Source: a virus. Taken from it: a DNA stretch of 45,663 bases. The notes under the pieces are model-generated. The model saw only the letters and a program-made list of their open reading frames with translations. It was not told the origin of the DNA and did no database searches. Below, in pieces: positions 3,982 to 45,545 of the stretch. Within the stretch, counting starts at the first letter, position 1; each line of letters opens with the position of its first letter. The stretch covers positions 1 through 45,663 of IMG/VR virus record IMGVR_UViG_3300003635_000007; one strand, 5' to 3'. Position numbers and translations under genes: made by a program.

Positions 3982-4051
3982 CTACTATCACGAAATGCTA
4001 ACCAAAGGTCGTAAGACCTACGCGCTAACGAAGCAACGAAAGGAAAACACC

Positions 4052-4264
4052 ATGTACGTAGGAACTATTGGAGGCGATGACATACGCTTCAACAAACAAA
4101 TAGTGTTCGATAGTGTGAGTGAACTTGTGGAATACTACAACAAACACCACAAGGGTGACCACCTTGTTGAAATACACGAAGCCATTGAGGATTGTACTGG
4201 GTGTGTGTATCAGGGTGAGTATATGTTTAGTTTCCATACGGAAAACTTCGGGGACATACGGTAG
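4052..4264 (+). CDS. Hypothetical protein ending at the paired regulatory element
   Basis: This encodes 70 residues starting at the ATG preceded by AAAGGA (spacing about 8). A longer in-frame start at 3995 has no ribosome site. The sequence has the pattern FDSVSELVEYYNKHHKGDHLVEIHEAIEDCTG and resembles its neighbour at 3364-3579 in style, without an identifiable family. Its stop codon (4262-4264) overlaps the first bases of the element at 4263-4356. Confidence 0.65.
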   Translation: MYVGTIGGDDIRFNKQIVFDSVSELVEYYNKHHKGDHLVEIHEAIEDCTGCVYQGEYMFSFHTENFGDIR

Positions 4265-4356
4265 AATCCGCACGATTCCTAAGTATACCTATAGGTATAT
4301 ATACACCCGGTACCAACCGATAATGGAATTATACATACATCTGAAGCACCCGTCAA
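4263..4356 (-). promoter_or_regulatory. Paired regulatory element, copy A, with leftward sigma-70 promoter
   Basis: On the minus strand TTGACG (4356-4351), a 17-base spacer and a perfect TATAAT (4333-4328) form a strong promoter directed leftward, antisense to the gene ending at 4264. A 32-base block (4306-4337) is identical, in inverted orientation, to 31555-31586. Beyond it lies the perfect palindrome TATACCTATAGGTATA (4284-4299), then AGAATCCGCACGA (4263-4275), also shared. A match of this length between distant sites implies a conserved function such as a promoter-operator or a short antisense RNA. Confidence 0.6.
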
Positions 4357-4385
4357 GAGAAAAGTGACACAGAGAGAGAGAAAAT

Positions 4386-4790
4386 ATGGCTGACCCACTA
4401 ACCTGTCTTGTAGCAGCGATCTTCTTTGAGGCGCGAGACCAACCCCCCCTGGGACAAGAGATGGTAGCGCAGGTGGTGATGAACCGAGTGTCCCACCCAG
4501 ACTTCCCTGACGATGTGTGTTCTGTAGTCTACGAAAGTAAACAATTCAGCTTCACACACGATGGACTGAGCGATGACCCTGCCGACTACACCACCTACTT
4601 TGACCGTAGAGCGCGTGAGAGCGTCACTGAGTTAGCCCAGGAGTATCTCATGGGGGCTACCACCGGGAACACCTCTACCCACTACCACACGCTGTCTGTA
4701 GCGCCTGTATGGAGAACCAAGTTTACAGTTGACGGGGTTGTGGGAGACCATATATACTACACCTGTAGTAAGACTGAAAGGAACTGCTGA
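4386..4790 (+). CDS. SleB-like cell wall hydrolase (Hydrolase_2 family)
   Basis: This 134-residue enzyme is likely to cleave peptidoglycan glycan strands. The family signature is clear: AAIFFEARDQPPLGQ with the likely catalytic Glu15, VVMNRV, FPDDVCSVVYE, QFSFTHDG and a C-terminal THYHTLSVAPVW. It has no obvious signal peptide, so it would need a holin or another route to reach the wall, or it acts during entry or release through other factors. It is the first gene after the regulatory element at 4263-4356 and lies beside two secreted proteins, giving a small envelope-directed cluster. A second, unrelated endolysin lies at 23170-23541. The start is supported by a GAGAGAGAG purine run before the ATG. 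Confidence 0.85.
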   Translation: MADPLTCLVAAIFFEARDQPPLGQEMVAQVVMNRVSHPDFPDDVCSVVYESKQFSFTHDGLSDDPADYTTYFDRRARESVTELAQEYLMGATTGNTSTHYHTLSVAPVWRTKFTVDGVVGDHIYYTCSKTERNC

Positions 4791-5814: not shown

Positions 5815-5975
5815 CTAAGAGAAGCGATGCCACCGTAGATGATCTTTGTATTGTGGTGCTTGCTTTACGAGACCGCATTGAGGAAGTGCAGGCCGAACTC
5901 GACCGCTACAAGGCCCGTGCGGAGCGGGCGGAGAAGGTTAGTGCGACCTTAAAGGACACCACCAATGACCAATGA
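5811..5975 (+). CDS. Small coiled-coil hypothetical protein
   Basis: This encodes 54 residues beginning in the stop region of the preceding gene (ATGA overlap). The middle (RDRIEEVQAELDRYKARAERAEKV) is a clear heptad-type coiled coil. The end (KDTTNDQ) and the overlap with the next ATG form the first instance of a recurring junction sequence found four times between 5811 and 7022. Confidence 0.65.
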   Translation: MTKRSDATVDDLCIVVLALRDRIEEVQAELDRYKARAERAEKVSATLKDTTNDQ

Positions 5976-6537
5976 ACTTAAATCAATCTTAGAGGCACAT
6001 AGCCTGTGGTTAGAAGGTTGTGGTGGAGAACCTGCCAACCTTCAGAATGCCGACCTTCAGGATGCCGACCTTCGGGATGCCGACCTTCGGGATGTCGACC
6101 TTCGGGATGCCAACCTTCGACGCGCCAGCCTTGATGGTACCAACCTTGATGGAGCCAACCTTCGGTGTGCCAACCTTCGGGGTGCCAACCTTCGGGATGT
6201 CAGCCTTCAAGATGCCAACCTTCGGGGTGCCAACCTTCGGGGTGCCAACCTTCGGGATGCCAACCTATTGTGCTTCGGTAATATGCGGGAAATACACACG
6301 ATGCAGATTGACACTTGGCCCATCGGCTACACGGCAGACACCCTACAGATTGGTTGCCAGCGTCACCCCATTGAGAAGTGGCGCAGGTGGAACACCCCCG
6401 CTGGCCGCAAATGGATAGAGGGTATGGACCATCAGGCGCTTAATTGGGCCTGCCGCAACCTTTCACTAGTGCTGGCTATGATTGACGCCAACCCCGCAAC
6501 GCCAACAGGACGTGAGGACACCCCCAATGACCAATGA
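5965..6537 (+). CDS. Pentapeptide-repeat protein
   Basis: This encodes 190 residues. Residues 24 to about 101 are some fifteen A(N/D)LxX pentapeptides (ANLQN, ADLQD, ADLRD, ANLRG and so on), which fold into a right-handed quadrilateral beta helix. The remaining C-terminal part (MREIHTMQIDTWPIGY, then a Trp-rich segment) is a module that I recall from other phage pentapeptide proteins. Some pentapeptide proteins mimic DNA and bind gyrase (Qnr, MfpA); that would suit a phage, but it is inference. The repeats are also nearly identical at DNA level (GGATGCCAACCTTCG-like units), implying recent expansion. The gene overlaps both neighbours by about 11 bases. Confidence 0.85.
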   Translation: MTNELKSILEAHSLWLEGCGGEPANLQNADLQDADLRDADLRDVDLRDANLRRASLDGTNLDGANLRCANLRGANLRDVSLQDANLRGANLRGANLRDANLLCFGNMREIHTMQIDTWPIGYTADTLQIGCQRHPIEKWRRWNTPAGRKWIEGMDHQALNWACRNLSLVLAMIDANPATPTGREDTPNDQ

Positions 6538-6667
6538 ACTAACACTTCGAGAGCGCATGGCGCTTCAAATACTACGAGCGATGTACCTGATCGTGGCTCC
6601 GAGTGAATATTCCCACAGGGATAAAGAGCTAATGGATAAAATATTGAAGGACACCACCAATGACTGA
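6527..6667 (+). CDS. Small hypothetical protein in the MTNE cassette
   Basis: This encodes 46 residues starting at ATGACCAATGA, which overlaps the previous stop. A longer frame from 6482 exists but its start lies deep in the pentapeptide gene. The protein is helical (LTLRERMALQILRAMYLIVAP) and ends KDTTND, copying the C-terminus of the protein at 5811-5975. Function unknown. Confidence 0.55.
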   Translation: MTNELTLRERMALQILRAMYLIVAPSEYSHRDKELMDKILKDTTND

Positions 6668-7022
6668 CAAGCTGATTGAACAGATCAAGTCGGATCGTAA
6701 GGCAGAGGCAAAAGCAAATGGGCGGTATAAAAAATATCAATATCAGCCTTCAATGGACACAAGGCATTTGCCAGAAACGGCTCTCGATCCAAACATTGAA
6801 AGGCAACTTCGAAGAATGGGGCGTGTGGTTAGGCTTGAATCCCGCGTTCTTGCCGACGCCGAGGCCCTGAAAGCGGCGGATGAGGCACTGGAACAAGCAC
6901 GCCATGCATTGAACGTTGCCCCTGCTTTTGCTGACAACGGGGCTACTGAATACGCGATTGAGAAGTTCAACGATCTATACGCCGCCTACCGCAAAGCACG
7001 GGAGAACACCAATGACCAATGA
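6660..7022 (+). CDS. Hypothetical helical protein in the MTNE cassette
   Basis: This encodes 120 residues and overlaps the preceding stop by 8 bases. It is strongly helical and Ala-rich in its second half (ADAEALKAADEALEQARHAL... DLYAAYRKARENTNDQ), suggesting a coiled coil. It starts MTDKL and ends NTNDQ, like its neighbours. No family is recognised. Confidence 0.65.
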   Translation: MTDKLIEQIKSDRKAEAKANGRYKKYQYQPSMDTRHLPETALDPNIERQLRRMGRVVRLESRVLADAEALKAADEALEQARHALNVAPAFADNGATEYAIEKFNDLYAAYRKARENTNDQ

Positions 7023-7437
7023 AACGAAAGCGCCCGAGCGGATATTTATGGACCCTGACATCAAGTTCCCCGAGTGCGAAAAGCAATACGGGTGCGATGT
7101 CGAATACATCCAAAACGATCTGCACCTATCCCTTGTGGCTGCGGCTTATGACAACGCGGCATCACGGGTAAATCAATTGTCTCACACTGCTACCGCTACG
7201 GGTAATTTCACACAGGCGTCAGCGCTGGCAAACGAGGCTGAGAATATACGAGACAGCACCCCCGCCGACGCCCAAGCCGCTCTTGAGGCCCGTGACAAGC
7301 GGGTGAGGGAGGAGGCGCTGAGGGAGGCTATTGCAGTGTGTGAGCCGGGAGGTTTGACCCATCACGGACCAGATGATTATCGCATCTGCCAATCCCTCAT
7401 CCTCGCCCTAATCGAAAAGGACAAGAGCAATGAGTGA
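7012..7437 (+). CDS. Hypothetical helical protein in the MTNE cassette
   Basis: This encodes 141 residues starting at the fourth copy of the ATGACCAATGA junction. An in-frame start at 6916 lies far inside the preceding gene and is not used. The central part (LSLVAAAYDNAASRVNQLSHTATATGNFTQASALANEAENIRD) and the end (AALEARDKRVREEALREAIAVCE) are typical of helical proteins in short-gene cassettes of other phages and prophages, usually of unknown function. The C-terminal LILALIEKDKS resembles the protein at 7647-7832 (AILALIEKEPD). Confidence 0.65.
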   Translation: MTNETKAPERIFMDPDIKFPECEKQYGCDVEYIQNDLHLSLVAAAYDNAASRVNQLSHTATATGNFTQASALANEAENIRDSTPADAQAALEARDKRVREEALREAIAVCEPGGLTHHGPDDYRICQSLILALIEKDKSNE

Positions 7438-30605: not shown

Positions 30606-31082
30606 TTACGTAATCCCTGTGTAGTCGGGGACACCACCCTGCTGTTGGTTATTAGGCATGAGGAAGTCCAGACCGCCTAAGTCCATACCTATACTACCAA
30701 TAGTACCACCGATATTGGCTAGACCACGTGCTCGTGAGGCGTCCATACTCGCCTGGGTCACAACACCAGACAAACCACCCATCTGTGTAGAGAAGCCTAG
30801 TTCAGAGCCTGTACGAGATGATAGACTCGCGATACCGCCTGCTGTACCAGAGCCTCCTAGACCACCAGCAGACTGTGCAGTAGCGATTGCCTGTGCACGA
30901 GCGACCTGTTGGCGACGGATGGCCTGCCTACGAGACCTACGGGCCTGTAGCTCCTGTTGACGTTGACGTGCCGCCTGAGCACGACGCTGAGCCTTTGCAG
31001 CCTTCTGTCCTTGGTAGACGCTGTAGGCTGTACCACCGATTGCTGCAACTGCCGCAACGGTTGCTAGAGTTGTTCCTGCCAT
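30606..31082 (-). CDS. Internal virion protein (gp14-like)
   Basis: This encodes 158 residues. A hydrophobic N-terminus (LATVAAVAAIGGTAYSVYQG) precedes a long Gln/Arg/Ala helix (KAAKAQRRAQAARQRQQELQARRSRRQAIRRQQVARAQ), then a Gly/Ser-rich C-terminus. This layout is typical of the smallest ejection protein of T7-like podoviruses, which inserts in the outer membrane. AGAGGATC upstream serves as ribosome site. It shares one base with the preceding gene. Confidence 0.72.
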   Translation of the reverse strand: MAGTTLATVAAVAAIGGTAYSVYQGQKAAKAQRRAQAARQRQQELQARRSRRQAIRRQQVARAQAIATAQSAGGLGGSGTAGGIASLSSRTGSELGFSTQMGGLSGVVTQASMDASRARGLANIGGTIGSIGMDLGGLDFLMPNNQQQGGVPDYTGIT

Positions 31083-31528
31083 TATTCGATCCTCTTGATG
31101 TAGGAAACCTCAGAAACTGAGTAACCCATCTTTTCGTACAGTTTTGAAAGGTCTGCTATACCTCTGATGTCTGCCATCACTACATAGTCAGCCCCTACAG
31201 ACTTAGACCAGCTCTCAAAAGACTTGACCAGTTCTACAGCGTGTCTGCGTCCTCTGTGCTCTTTAGACATGAACCAGCCAAGTTCAGTAGCCATCTTTGT
31301 GTGAGACATGAACATCTCAGTACAGGCCCCCAACAAACCCCCTGTAATCTCACCGTCACTGGTCTCCGAGACAAACAACACAAGAGAAGGTTCTTGTATG
31401 GCCTGGAGTAGAAGACCCTCTACCTTCTGTTTGTCCCAAGTAAAAATTTCAGGGGCTTCCTTACAGAACTCCTTAGCCAGAACCAAAACATCAAACAGGT
31501 CTTTTTCTGTAGCTAGTCTGACTGTCAT
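31082..31528 (-). CDS. GNAT-type acetyltransferase
   Basis: This encodes 148 residues with the GNAT fold pattern: VRLATEKDLFDVLVLAKEF at the start, ITGGLLGAC, then ELGWFMSKEHRGRRHAVELVKSFESW (acetyl-CoA pyrophosphate loop RGRRHA at about 92-97) and LSKLYEKMGYSVSEVSYIKRI. The substrate is unknown. Acetyltransferase-fold proteins are common between tail and internal virion genes of podoviruses. It is the first gene after the regulatory element at 31536-31627, with AAGGTG about 13 bases before the ATG. Confidence 0.82.
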   Translation of the reverse strand: MTVRLATEKDLFDVLVLAKEFCKEAPEIFTWDKQKVEGLLLQAIQEPSLVLFVSETSDGEITGGLLGACTEMFMSHTKMATELGWFMSKEHRGRRHAVELVKSFESWSKSVGADYVVMADIRGIADLSKLYEKMGYSVSEVSYIKRIE

Positions 31529-31535
31529 TTTTCTG

Positions 31536-31627
31536 TTGACACCTTCTTGGTTGGTATGTATAATTCCATTATCGGTTGGTACCGGGAGTATATACCTATA
31601 TGGTATTACGTAAGTATCGTGCGGATT
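31536..31627 (+). promoter_or_regulatory. Paired regulatory element, copy B, with rightward consensus promoter
   Basis: On the plus strand TTGACA (31536-31541) and TATAAT (31559-31564) are separated by exactly 17 bases, a full sigma-70 consensus. It fires rightward, antisense to the tail tubular gene. The 32 bases at 31555-31586 equal 4306-4337 in reverse complement, and similarity continues through an AT-rich dyad to TCGTGCGGATT (31617-31627), which reaches the stop codon of the convergent tail gene. No equally good promoter faces the acetyltransferase gene. Confidence 0.65.
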
Positions 31628-33770
31628 ATCTACGGTTTCTACCAGCTATTACATCAAAACCAAGTAGGTGGAAGTCTTTCCCTTGTTCACTCTCGAACCT
31701 CATACGCATACTCCTACCCCGTCCTCTAATCCTAAGTCTACTGGTAGTTACCGTAAAGGGGTAGTCAAACGAACCAGCACTCTCAGGTACACCTAGTTTC
31801 TTTAGTCTGTAGGCTTGTTGTTTCGTATCCGAGACTGTAGTCTTGAAATCCCAGTACGCACTAACCAAACAACTGGACGGACGGATGTACTCATACCCAT
31901 CTACATCGTTACCAGTAACACCTTCCTCGGTTACACTCATGTGTATTGTAGCATAAATTAGGTTCTTACGCAAGGCTAAATCACCAAGAAAGTCATACCC
32001 ACTCTCTGCGTAGCTCTCGTAGTTTGCACTACCCCAGTCCAGGAAGTCGATGTCAGTGAAGACTGCGAAGGTAAGCTGTCCTGTAGTATCCCTCACAAGG
32101 AACGTGAGTTGGCTAGAGGTATACGAACGAGCATCCCTAGTAACTGTGACTTGGTCCCCGCTGGAGTCTACAACAAGATCACCATTACTGTCGATTACGT
32201 CAAACTCAACCTGTCCAGTCAACTTACCTTTTACGTAGATAGGTTCTAGGAGGTACTGACCTGTCGCAGCATCAGAGATACGCCACGGGTAGAAGGCTGT
32301 AAGACCCTCATCAAAGAACAGGATGTTATTCTTCTTAAAGTCTGTAGTCTCACCATCGTCTGGGTACAGCCAAGCAATACGTTGGTTGAACTCGTCGTAA
32401 ACACCACTGACCTGGGCCTTCTTATCTGCGTCGATCTCACCCCAGAACGTCTGGATAGTGTTCAGTGAAATGTTCTGCTCCTGTAGCCCACCGTCCTGGC
32501 TTGCAGTAAGGGTGTGGATACCTGAGTCGGACCACCAGTACGGACGCCCCTGTGCGGACACAAAGGAGCCTTCGTAGGCTAAGCCAACCTCGGTAACCTT
32601 ACTGACAGAGTACTCTGTAGCACGGAATACGTTGTCAACGCCGTTGATTGTCCACACACCATTCTCAGCGAACACAATCAGGAACGGGCCAAGGACTTGT
32701 AGTCTCTGGATGTTGTAGGCACCCTGTACGTCGATCACACCCCCGTCAGTGTCGAGTAAGTCAGAAAGGTCCTCTGACGTAGGGTCATTAATCTGGTAGC
32801 AGTCCCCAAGACGGTCTGTCTGGAACAACGTACGAGAAAAGAATACTTTGTTAGAATACTTATTGGACATGCCAGAATAGAAGACACGTCCAGCAAACGT
32901 GGCTACCGTCTTAAATCTAGATGTCTCTGTGTAGTTAAGACCTGAGATACCTGAAGCTGTCTCTCGGTCTTGTTCGTACAAGTCAAGTATAAAAGAGCCA
33001 TTAGCGATAAGGGACGTACCAGCGAAAATCTTCCTGTACTCTGCCACACTGAAGTTGCCGCTAGAGTCCTTACCAGAAAACCACGGAAGGCTCAGTGGAG
33101 GGTAGGCAGACCTATTTGATATGTAAGAGCTAAGAGCAGCGTCACCCTTGTCCCCTGTCCAGCCAGAGTTCTTTGTGTCGTAGTCACGTTCGTCACTGAC
33201 AGTGGCTGAAGCTGACTCACTCTGGTATTCCTCAATATCTCCTTGGAACTCAAAGTCACGGACACGGAACTGGATTTCTTCTGTAGAGATTGTATCGGTA
33301 TCGTCGTCATAAGTGACCTTGAACGTGTTAATTTCTTTCGAAGCTACAACAAGGATACCTTCAATGGTAGTGGTCTGTACCTTAGCAGACGACGCACCAA
33401 AGCCACTAGGACGAGCGAAAGTTGAAAGGTCTACAGTAAAGGATTTCTTGTTGGCACTAAGAGCGCCTGAGGACTCTAGGTAGAAGTGCAGTGTACCAGC
33501 ATTCTGTAGTACAATGAAGGTGAGGCCGCTAACACCACCAGCGTTCTCCCAGATGTGTGTACTAGTATTCGACCCCTCAGTGTGCGTAGGGCCTAGCTGG
33601 AAACCTGACTCGTACTCAAGACCCAACCTACGGCGACGAGAACCATCCCGCTCCAGAGACATATTAAGCTCATCTACAGAAGCACCGTCAGGGAACGTAA
33701 GCTCCCCGCGCTCAGTAATCAGACCCTTGTTGAATACAACGGTAGGCTTCTGTGTAGCTTGCTGAGCCAT
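31626..33770 (-). CDS. Tail tubular protein B (T7 gp12-like nozzle)
   Basis: This encodes 714 residues. The N-terminal KPTVVFNKGLITERGELTFPDGASVDELNMSLERDGSRRRRLGLEYE and the later VIFAENGVWTI-type strands and QRIAWLYPDDG are typical of the gp12 nozzle family, which forms the distal tail tube. It is beta-rich and similar in length to T7 gp12 (794). It is followed downstream by the copy B element and preceded by a small gene and tail tubular A. Confidence 0.85.
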   Translation of the reverse strand: MAQQATQKPTVVFNKGLITERGELTFPDGASVDELNMSLERDGSRRRRLGLEYESGFQLGPTHTEGSNTSTHIWENAGGVSGLTFIVLQNAGTLHFYLESSGALSANKKSFTVDLSTFARPSGFGASSAKVQTTTIEGILVVASKEINTFKVTYDDDTDTISTEEIQFRVRDFEFQGDIEEYQSESASATVSDERDYDTKNSGWTGDKGDAALSSYISNRSAYPPLSLPWFSGKDSSGNFSVAEYRKIFAGTSLIANGSFILDLYEQDRETASGISGLNYTETSRFKTVATFAGRVFYSGMSNKYSNKVFFSRTLFQTDRLGDCYQINDPTSEDLSDLLDTDGGVIDVQGAYNIQRLQVLGPFLIVFAENGVWTINGVDNVFRATEYSVSKVTEVGLAYEGSFVSAQGRPYWWSDSGIHTLTASQDGGLQEQNISLNTIQTFWGEIDADKKAQVSGVYDEFNQRIAWLYPDDGETTDFKKNNILFFDEGLTAFYPWRISDAATGQYLLEPIYVKGKLTGQVEFDVIDSNGDLVVDSSGDQVTVTRDARSYTSSQLTFLVRDTTGQLTFAVFTDIDFLDWGSANYESYAESGYDFLGDLALRKNLIYATIHMSVTEEGVTGNDVDGYEYIRPSSCLVSAYWDFKTTVSDTKQQAYRLKKLGVPESAGSFDYPFTVTTSRLRIRGRGRSMRMRFESEQGKDFHLLGFDVIAGRNRR

Positions 33771-35398: not shown

Positions 35399-35423
35399 GC
35401 TACAATCCCTCTTAGGTTAAGGC

Positions 35424-35448
35424 GGAGGAGGCCTCTTAAGCCTCCCCC
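35424..35448. terminator. Hairpin between two virion genes, possible attenuator
   Basis: GGAGGC (35427-35432) pairs with GCCTCC (35440-35445) around a seven-base loop. It lies in the 61-base gap after the gene at 35460-35933. There is no strong T-run on the minus strand, so it could be a weak terminator or an mRNA-stabilising hairpin that keeps capsid genes expressed above the downstream tail genes. Confidence 0.4.
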
Positions 35449-35459
35449 AGTTTCTTTAG

Positions 35460-40266: not shown

Positions 40267-40296
40267 AGTATAGCACAAGTTGTTGGTTGCTGTCAA
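40267..40296 (-). promoter_or_regulatory. Consensus leftward promoter ahead of the portal gene
   Basis: On the minus strand TTGACA (40296-40291), 18 bases, then TATACT (40272-40267), followed by AACAC. The same -10 and AACAC context occurs at 45516-45545. It lies in the 59-base gap between terL and the portal gene and would drive portal, scaffold and capsid expression. Confidence 0.75.
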
Positions 40297-45515: not shown

Positions 45516-45545
45516 AGTATAGCATACTTTGTATAGTGGTGTCAA
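45516..45545 (-). promoter_or_regulatory. Consensus leftward late promoter
   Basis: On the minus strand TTGACA (45545-45540), 18 bases, TATACT (45521-45516), then AACAC. It precedes the leftward block, with a leader of about 40 bases to the ATG at 45472. It matches the promoter at 40267-40296 in hexamers, spacer length and the bases after the -10. Confidence 0.78.

Follow-up and report, generated by a model that had tools for sequence, protein, structure and literature searches.

Why should a phage carry, in opposite gene arms, two inverted copies of one intergenic element, each with a near-consensus promoter sequence that points back into the preceding gene? The question arises from the window, the whole 45,663-bp IMG/VR virus record analyzed here, which comes from an uncultured Roseobacter-type phage related to the Cobavirinae (Zobellviridae); its named relatives are SIO1, ICBM1-3, CRP-4/5, P12053L and PQ867845. 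Cobaviruses are globally distributed, and their genomes consist of two arms that run in opposite directions with a bidirectional terminator between them; their promoters are undescribed, and the word “promoter” does not occur in the cobavirus genome paper (PMC6775973). In the window the early arm lies on the plus strand and the late arm on the minus strand, so that both inverted copies are oriented alike with respect to local transcription.

Two inverted copies and their promoter signals

An earlier note on this DNA had reported 32 bases near 4.3 kb that recur in reverse complement near 31.5 kb, and this identity was borne out. The 32-mer GTATGTATAATTCCATTATCGGTTGGTACCGG occurs exactly twice in the window (4307-4338, minus; 31554-31585, plus), 100 dinucleotide shuffles gave no match even with three mismatches allowed, and one extra base brings the perfect core to 33 nt (4306-4338 and 31554-31586). 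The core lies within arms of 105 nt that are 78% complementary and make up the window’s longest inverted repeat (Table 1). Similarity beyond the core had been placed on one side only; it flanks the core on both sides and includes GTCAYTTTTCTSTTGAC upstream of the -35. Each copy occupies the gap from one gene’s stop to the next gene’s start, and profile searches upheld the hydrolase and acetyltransferase assignments of the adjoining genes. No family or phage homologue was found for the gene opposed by copy 1.

Table 1. Features of the two copies and of their flanking genes, in window coordinates
Feature	Position	Strand	Remarks
Element, copy 1	4265..4369	- (promoter direction)	Inverted repeat arm, 78%; between + gene ending 4264 and + hydrolase gene starting 4386
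AATCCGCACGA, copy 1	4265..4275	+	Directly after stop codon of upstream gene
-35 TTGACG, copy 1	4351..4356	-	Preceded by T-rich UP-like stretch GTCACTTTTCTC
-10 TATAAT, copy 1	4328..4333	-	17-nt spacer
Leader hairpin 1, copy 1	4308..4319	-	CGGT-tggt-ACCG; sequence and predicted fold; just past predicted start near 4321
Leader hairpin 2 / AT-rich dyad, copy 1	4284..4299	-	TATACC-tata-GGTATA; sequence and predicted fold
Element, copy 2	31523..31627	+ (promoter direction)	Inverted repeat arm; gap between tail-appendage and GNAT genes, both on -
AATCCGCACGA, copy 2	31617..31627	-	At tail-appendage gene stop codon
-35 TTGACA, copy 2	31536..31541	+	
-10 TATAAT, copy 2	31559..31564	+	17-nt spacer
Leader hairpin 1, copy 2	31573..31584	+	CGGT-tggt-ACCG; identical to copy 1
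Leader hairpin 2, copy 2	31592..31606	+	ATACC-tatat-GGTAT; re-formed despite indels relative to copy 1
Gene opposed by copy 1 promoter	3995..4264	+	Likelier start ATG near 4052, behind AAAGGAAAA
Cell-wall hydrolase gene, begins next block after copy 1	4386..4790	+	Hydrolase_2, PF07486, E=4e-21
Tail-appendage gene opposed by copy 2 promoter	31626..33770	-	phrog_8094, E=9e-182
GNAT acetyltransferase gene, begins next block after copy 2	31082..31528	-	PF00583, E=6e-5; phrog_1249

In both copies near-consensus hexamers stand at a spacing within the 16-18 nt of sigma-70 promoters, in the antisense direction that had been proposed: copy 1 matches the consensus at 11 of 12 positions (TTGACG-17-TATAAT, 4356-4328, minus) and copy 2 at all 12 (TTGACA-17-TATAAT, 31536-31564, plus). 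Both head the sigma-70 lists of their genome segments, copy 1 with one tie at 11/12 (12396). Identity between the copies is 10/12 upstream, 5/6 in the -35, 4/12 in the first part of the spacer, 5/5 in its last bases, 6/6 in the -10 and 21/21 in the leader; within the promoter and the first leader bases, drift is confined to the first 12 spacer bases, the pattern that selection on a promoter would leave. Both copies look like strong host-type promoters predicted to fire into the preceding gene.

In the predicted folds of the window leaders hairpin 1 is supported and hairpin 2 is weak, and no Rfam match was obtained for the leader. Folding the transcripts predicted to start near 4321 (minus) and 31571 (plus), a check put forward earlier, gave whole leaders that fold no better than shuffles (z of -1.1 for copy 1 and -0.7 for copy 2). 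An intrinsic terminator was found neither in nor just after either copy, and further downstream, terminators that would define an antisense RNA show no clear excess (3 of 27, versus 3% in controls), which does not favor the pair of small antisense RNAs once suggested. A small antisense open reading frame, for which TCGTGCGG could supply a GTG start, was also considered and rejected, as a properly spaced ribosome site is not present in both copies.

A shorter motif, AATCCGYACGA (= TCGTRCGGATT), has four mismatch-free occurrences (144, 176, 4265 and 31617), two of them near the left end (144-154 and 176-186) and one at the stop codon in each copy. At up to one mismatch the window holds six matches, a number reached by no shuffle (mean 0.86), and the motif is possibly a separate regulatory or RNA site. 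A 13-base piece said to recur at 144-156 does so in the form found in copy 1 (ending in CT) and not in that of copy 2 (ending in AT).

A promoter-leader family and its antisense sub-class

Searches for the element itself returned little: an exact search of IMG/VR with the 26-mer core gave no match, blastn of copy 1 against phage records gave chance-level matches only, and queries with the tail-appendage, hydrolase and internal virion protein genes found no close relative covering either site in the collections searched. The sequence of the nearest relative (L172, 92% in the primase) appears to begin downstream of copy 1. The first match among relatives by blastn of the element was of 86 nt, in a phage (L196) where it forms a sense early promoter. 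A systematic scan of relatives found copies in sense to early genes, to late genes, to the post-capsid gene and to primase, hydrolase or thyX, at three sites: the divergent region that adjoins the last late gene, where copies face the early genes or, in SIO1 and its relatives, the late genes; the gap between capsid and post-capsid genes; and the position immediately before primase, hydrolase or thyX. Their shared layout is a UP-like T-tract, TTGACA, 16-17 nt, TATAAT, and then a leader in which a short hairpin at the extreme 5′ end precedes an AT-rich GTATATA motif predicted to form a second one.

A profile HMM was built from 25 sense copies of other phages, with the window and all antisense copies left out of training. 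Only two credible matches are found in the window, and they are copy 1 (4356-4276, 27.1 bits) and copy 2 (31537-31608, 20.9 bits); the best score in 60 shuffled windows was 10.8 bits. E-values for the window alone (9.9e-8 and 8.7e-6) are optimistic because the initial collection of family members used a motif that the window had suggested, and against all loci the values are 7.9e-6 for copy 1 and 6.9e-4 for copy 2. A good leader hairpin is present in 24 of 44 non-redundant family leaders (5.1 ± 2.1 expected from shuffles), and both window copies have one. In CRP-5, ICBM2 and L366 the hairpin sequence varies among promoters of one genome, while the two window copies are identical there; such differences within one genome favor structure over a sequence-specific operator, and a shared operator with one sequence per genome was rejected on this ground. 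Both window copies belong to this Cobavirinae family and are predicted to be active promoters. Phage antisense promoters are already known as a kind, and the promoter-leader family behind the window pair is apparently undescribed in the literature searched; to that extent the earlier statement that no equivalent has been described stands, but undescribed equivalents are common in sequence data.

The sense-trained HMM also matches ICBM2 at 2672 (minus). This site, CRP-5 at 2570 (minus) and sites in L255 and L366 are antisense to both neighbors and lie in the stretch before the primase. A sequence collection was scanned with the pattern TATAMTAGGGCT-N10-12-AGGG, and only matches that passed a -35 filter were used because many unfiltered matches are expected by chance. 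The scan yielded 41 leader-distinct copies on contigs with cobavirus genes, several of which may be one phage in different samples; 39 are antisense and two (L192 and L193) carry the same cassette in sense, so that the antisense orientation is not absolute. Where both markers are visible, the antisense copies always fall in the interval from the DUF7178 gene to the primase. Pairwise identity among 19 representatives, one misregistered row included, is 91% in the -35, 85% in the -10 and 45% in the spacer. The hairpin covaries, with 13 distinct sequences, 100% of cells paired and 19 double changes (not a count of events, since the sequences are related), a result reached in 0 of 500 shuffles and lost or far reduced when the hairpin was slid by one position. 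As the two outer pairs alone are set by the scan pattern, the paired changes inside do not stem from the way in which copies were selected.

Copy 1 lies in the corresponding interval, between the DUF7178 homologue (2368-2952) and the primase (8869). The DUF7178 gene and a SAM lyase gene (PF23780) mark a host-takeover block upstream of copy 1, which therefore fits the conserved antisense position. Its leader, TCCATTAT-hairpin-GG, has the same layout as the AGGG-hairpin-GGG leader of the sub-class and a different sequence, and for this reason copy 1 is kept apart from the sub-class. The tail-appendage/acetyltransferase junction that holds copy 2 measures 97 nt in the window, whereas in 20 relatives it spans -10 to +9 nt; their gapless state makes copy 2 look like a private insertion, and no counterpart was found in the late arm of the relatives examined. 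Most probably copy 2 arose from copy 1 by later duplication. The proposal of a promoter predicted to fire against its neighbor at a module boundary is well supported, both by the family at homologous sites in relatives and by the sub-class conserved between takeover genes and primase. A suggested switch between early and late blocks survives for copy 1, as an immediate-early/replication boundary, and fails for copy 2 as a private insertion. Opposition of an HTH regulator by the promoter, as is true of ICBM2-type phages (HTH_39 upstream), was considered for the window and not found there.

Predicted damping of the takeover block and competing readings

The explanation preferred here, with a probability of about 60%, is that the window pair are family promoters set antisense, that copy 1 damps the takeover block, and that copy 2 is a later duplicate. 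Host RNA polymerase would start at copy 1 and run head-on into the preceding block, which would be damped through polymerase collision and through an antisense RNA protected by its 5′ hairpin; the takeover genes would thereby be held down relative to the replication genes. A hairpin at the 5′ terminus could protect an RNA from decay. For antisense promoters in E. coli, repression by collision and by antisense RNA is about equal (PMC4731013). Copy 2, which lies antisense between the tail-appendage and acetyltransferase genes, might lower or delay expression of the tail-appendage gene and of the late genes upstream, although the case is weaker. A constitutive host promoter brings no obvious timing, and this counts against damping.

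Precedents exist in other phages. In lambda, with its paQ and OOP antisense promoters and RNAs, a promoter inside a lytic gene arm fires antisense and lowers expression of a regulator (PMC2327240). The window promoters are likewise predicted to be antisense within a gene arm; however, paQ needs CII, whereas these look like plain near-consensus sigma-70 promoters with a structured leader, present in both arms, and phages of the window type gave no sign of lysogeny in what was examined. In LUZ100, ONT-cappable-seq detected non-coding antisense transcription in the late structural region, downstream of the capsid gene, and the same is proposed for LIT1 and LUZ7 (PMC10134795). That antisense RNA is known from transcriptomics and the window elements from sequence alone; in addition, the window promoters share a promoter-plus-hairpin family with sense promoters, and none is reported for LUZ100 in the passages on this transcription (PMC10134795).

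The elements could instead be a mobile promoter cassette that moves between gene junctions, its antisense orientation, especially in copy 2, being accidental and nearly neutral. PeSL elements, which reportedly join a terminator stem-loop to an early promoter driving the next gene, are the obvious comparison: the window element is also a small intergenic promoter-plus-stem-loop cassette at a module junction, but no terminator or promoter for the next gene was found in the window copies, the stem belongs to the leader, and the promoter is directed backwards. PeSLs are mobile regulatory cassettes of T4-type phages, according to the passage that cites the original work (Arbiol 2010; Comeau 2014, cited in PMC4503421). 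Mobility would account for the private insertion at a junction where 20 relatives have no gap, for copies placed exactly between stop and start codons, and for the two orientations before the primase (sense in L192/L193, antisense in CRP-5/ICBM2). Accidents would not be expected to leave 39 of 41 early-arm copies antisense with -35 and -10 kept and the spacer drifted, or near-perfect promoters in both window copies, and we regard this account as rather unlikely. We consider it less probable still that the leader works on RNA polymerase in the manner of HK022 put, as an antiterminator or anti-pausing RNA with which transcripts, antisense ones included, would pass terminators and Rho. HK022 putL is about 70 nt with two stem-loops just downstream of PL (PMC9378689), and in the cobavirus copies, whether early, late or antisense, two short putative stem-loops come directly after the promoter, with hairpin enrichment and covariation. 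The stems are, however, much shorter than those of put, the second is weak, Rfam offers no match, and a hairpin at the 5′ end may only stabilize the mRNA.

Two further readings have very little probability. With its promoter next to an AT-rich dyad, its place near replication genes and its two inverted copies in opposite arms, the element might be a transcription-primed replication origin or a recombination site; family members, however, precede many ordinary operons in sense, and GC skew simply tracks the direction of the genes and does not turn at 4.3 or 31.5 kb, so that an origin inferred from skew was rejected. The recombination site proposed in the earlier note is not needed, though the cassette does occur in both orientations among relatives. 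Equally improbable is conservation of the sense strand for a UTR, ribosome-site or terminator function with only an incidental promoter match on the other strand. The antisense -35 does abut the next gene’s ribosome-binding site in relatives, but on the sense strand the -35 candidates match poorly, the antisense -35 and -10 hold a spacing of 16-17 nt in spite of drift in the spacer, and elsewhere this module stands as a sense promoter.

A broader and doubtful proposal is that the Cobavirinae employ a single structured promoter module in two ways, to drive operons and, in reverse, as a conserved backward-firing insulator between takeover and replication genes, and that in the window phage it has been copied into the late arm for the same control; were it true, a general “reverse-promoter insulator” layer would exist in lytic phages. 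The immediate result is a testable promoter map with a covarying 5′ hairpin for cobaviruses, together with evidence suggesting that selection, rather than noise, keeps backward-firing promoters in lytic phages. ICBM2 and CRP-5 are isolates with predicted antisense sites and so allow direct tests.

Other signals in the window and its relatives

Two putative sense late promoters, both TTGACA-N18-TATACT (TTGACA-N18-TATACTAACAC), lie on the minus strand of the window at 45516-45545 and 40267-40296. They are 78% alike over 37 nt, precede the first late gene and the portal gene, respectively, and probably serve the late arm. The sense promoter usual downstream of the capsid gene in relatives is absent from the window; the gap below the post-capsid gene (35399-35459) holds a GGAGGC..GCCTCC hairpin at that place. 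In SIO1, ICBM1 and P12053L the late and post-capsid promoters have 28 identical bases, TATAATAGTCTTAACAAGTCTCCCCTGC, at both sites in all three phages (all minus; L086:8612 and 37512, L088:39888 and 29377, L089:38681 and 30175). At the contig end (45608-45663) a truncated rightward promoter-like sequence, TTGACA-N16-TACCCT, resembles one in L232 and is probably the early promoter, cut by an incomplete terminus.

Terminator-like hairpins with T-rich tails (GGGGATA..TATCCCC and GGGTACA..TGTACCC) occur in L255 (3306-3328), L374 and L389, about 200 nt downstream of the antisense promoter, and vary in compensating fashion; termination there would leave this subclade with an antisense RNA of about 180 nt. 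Start-associated repeats are known in some mycobacteriophages, and a 26-nt repeat in the window, AGGACACCACCAATGACCAATGAACT, is similar: in each of four early genes in a row it takes in both ribosome site and start codon (5953-5978, 6515-6540, 6648-6673 and 7000-7025). An early gene at 5965-6537 is itself built of 15-nt (five-residue) tandem repeats and is pentapeptide-repeat-like.
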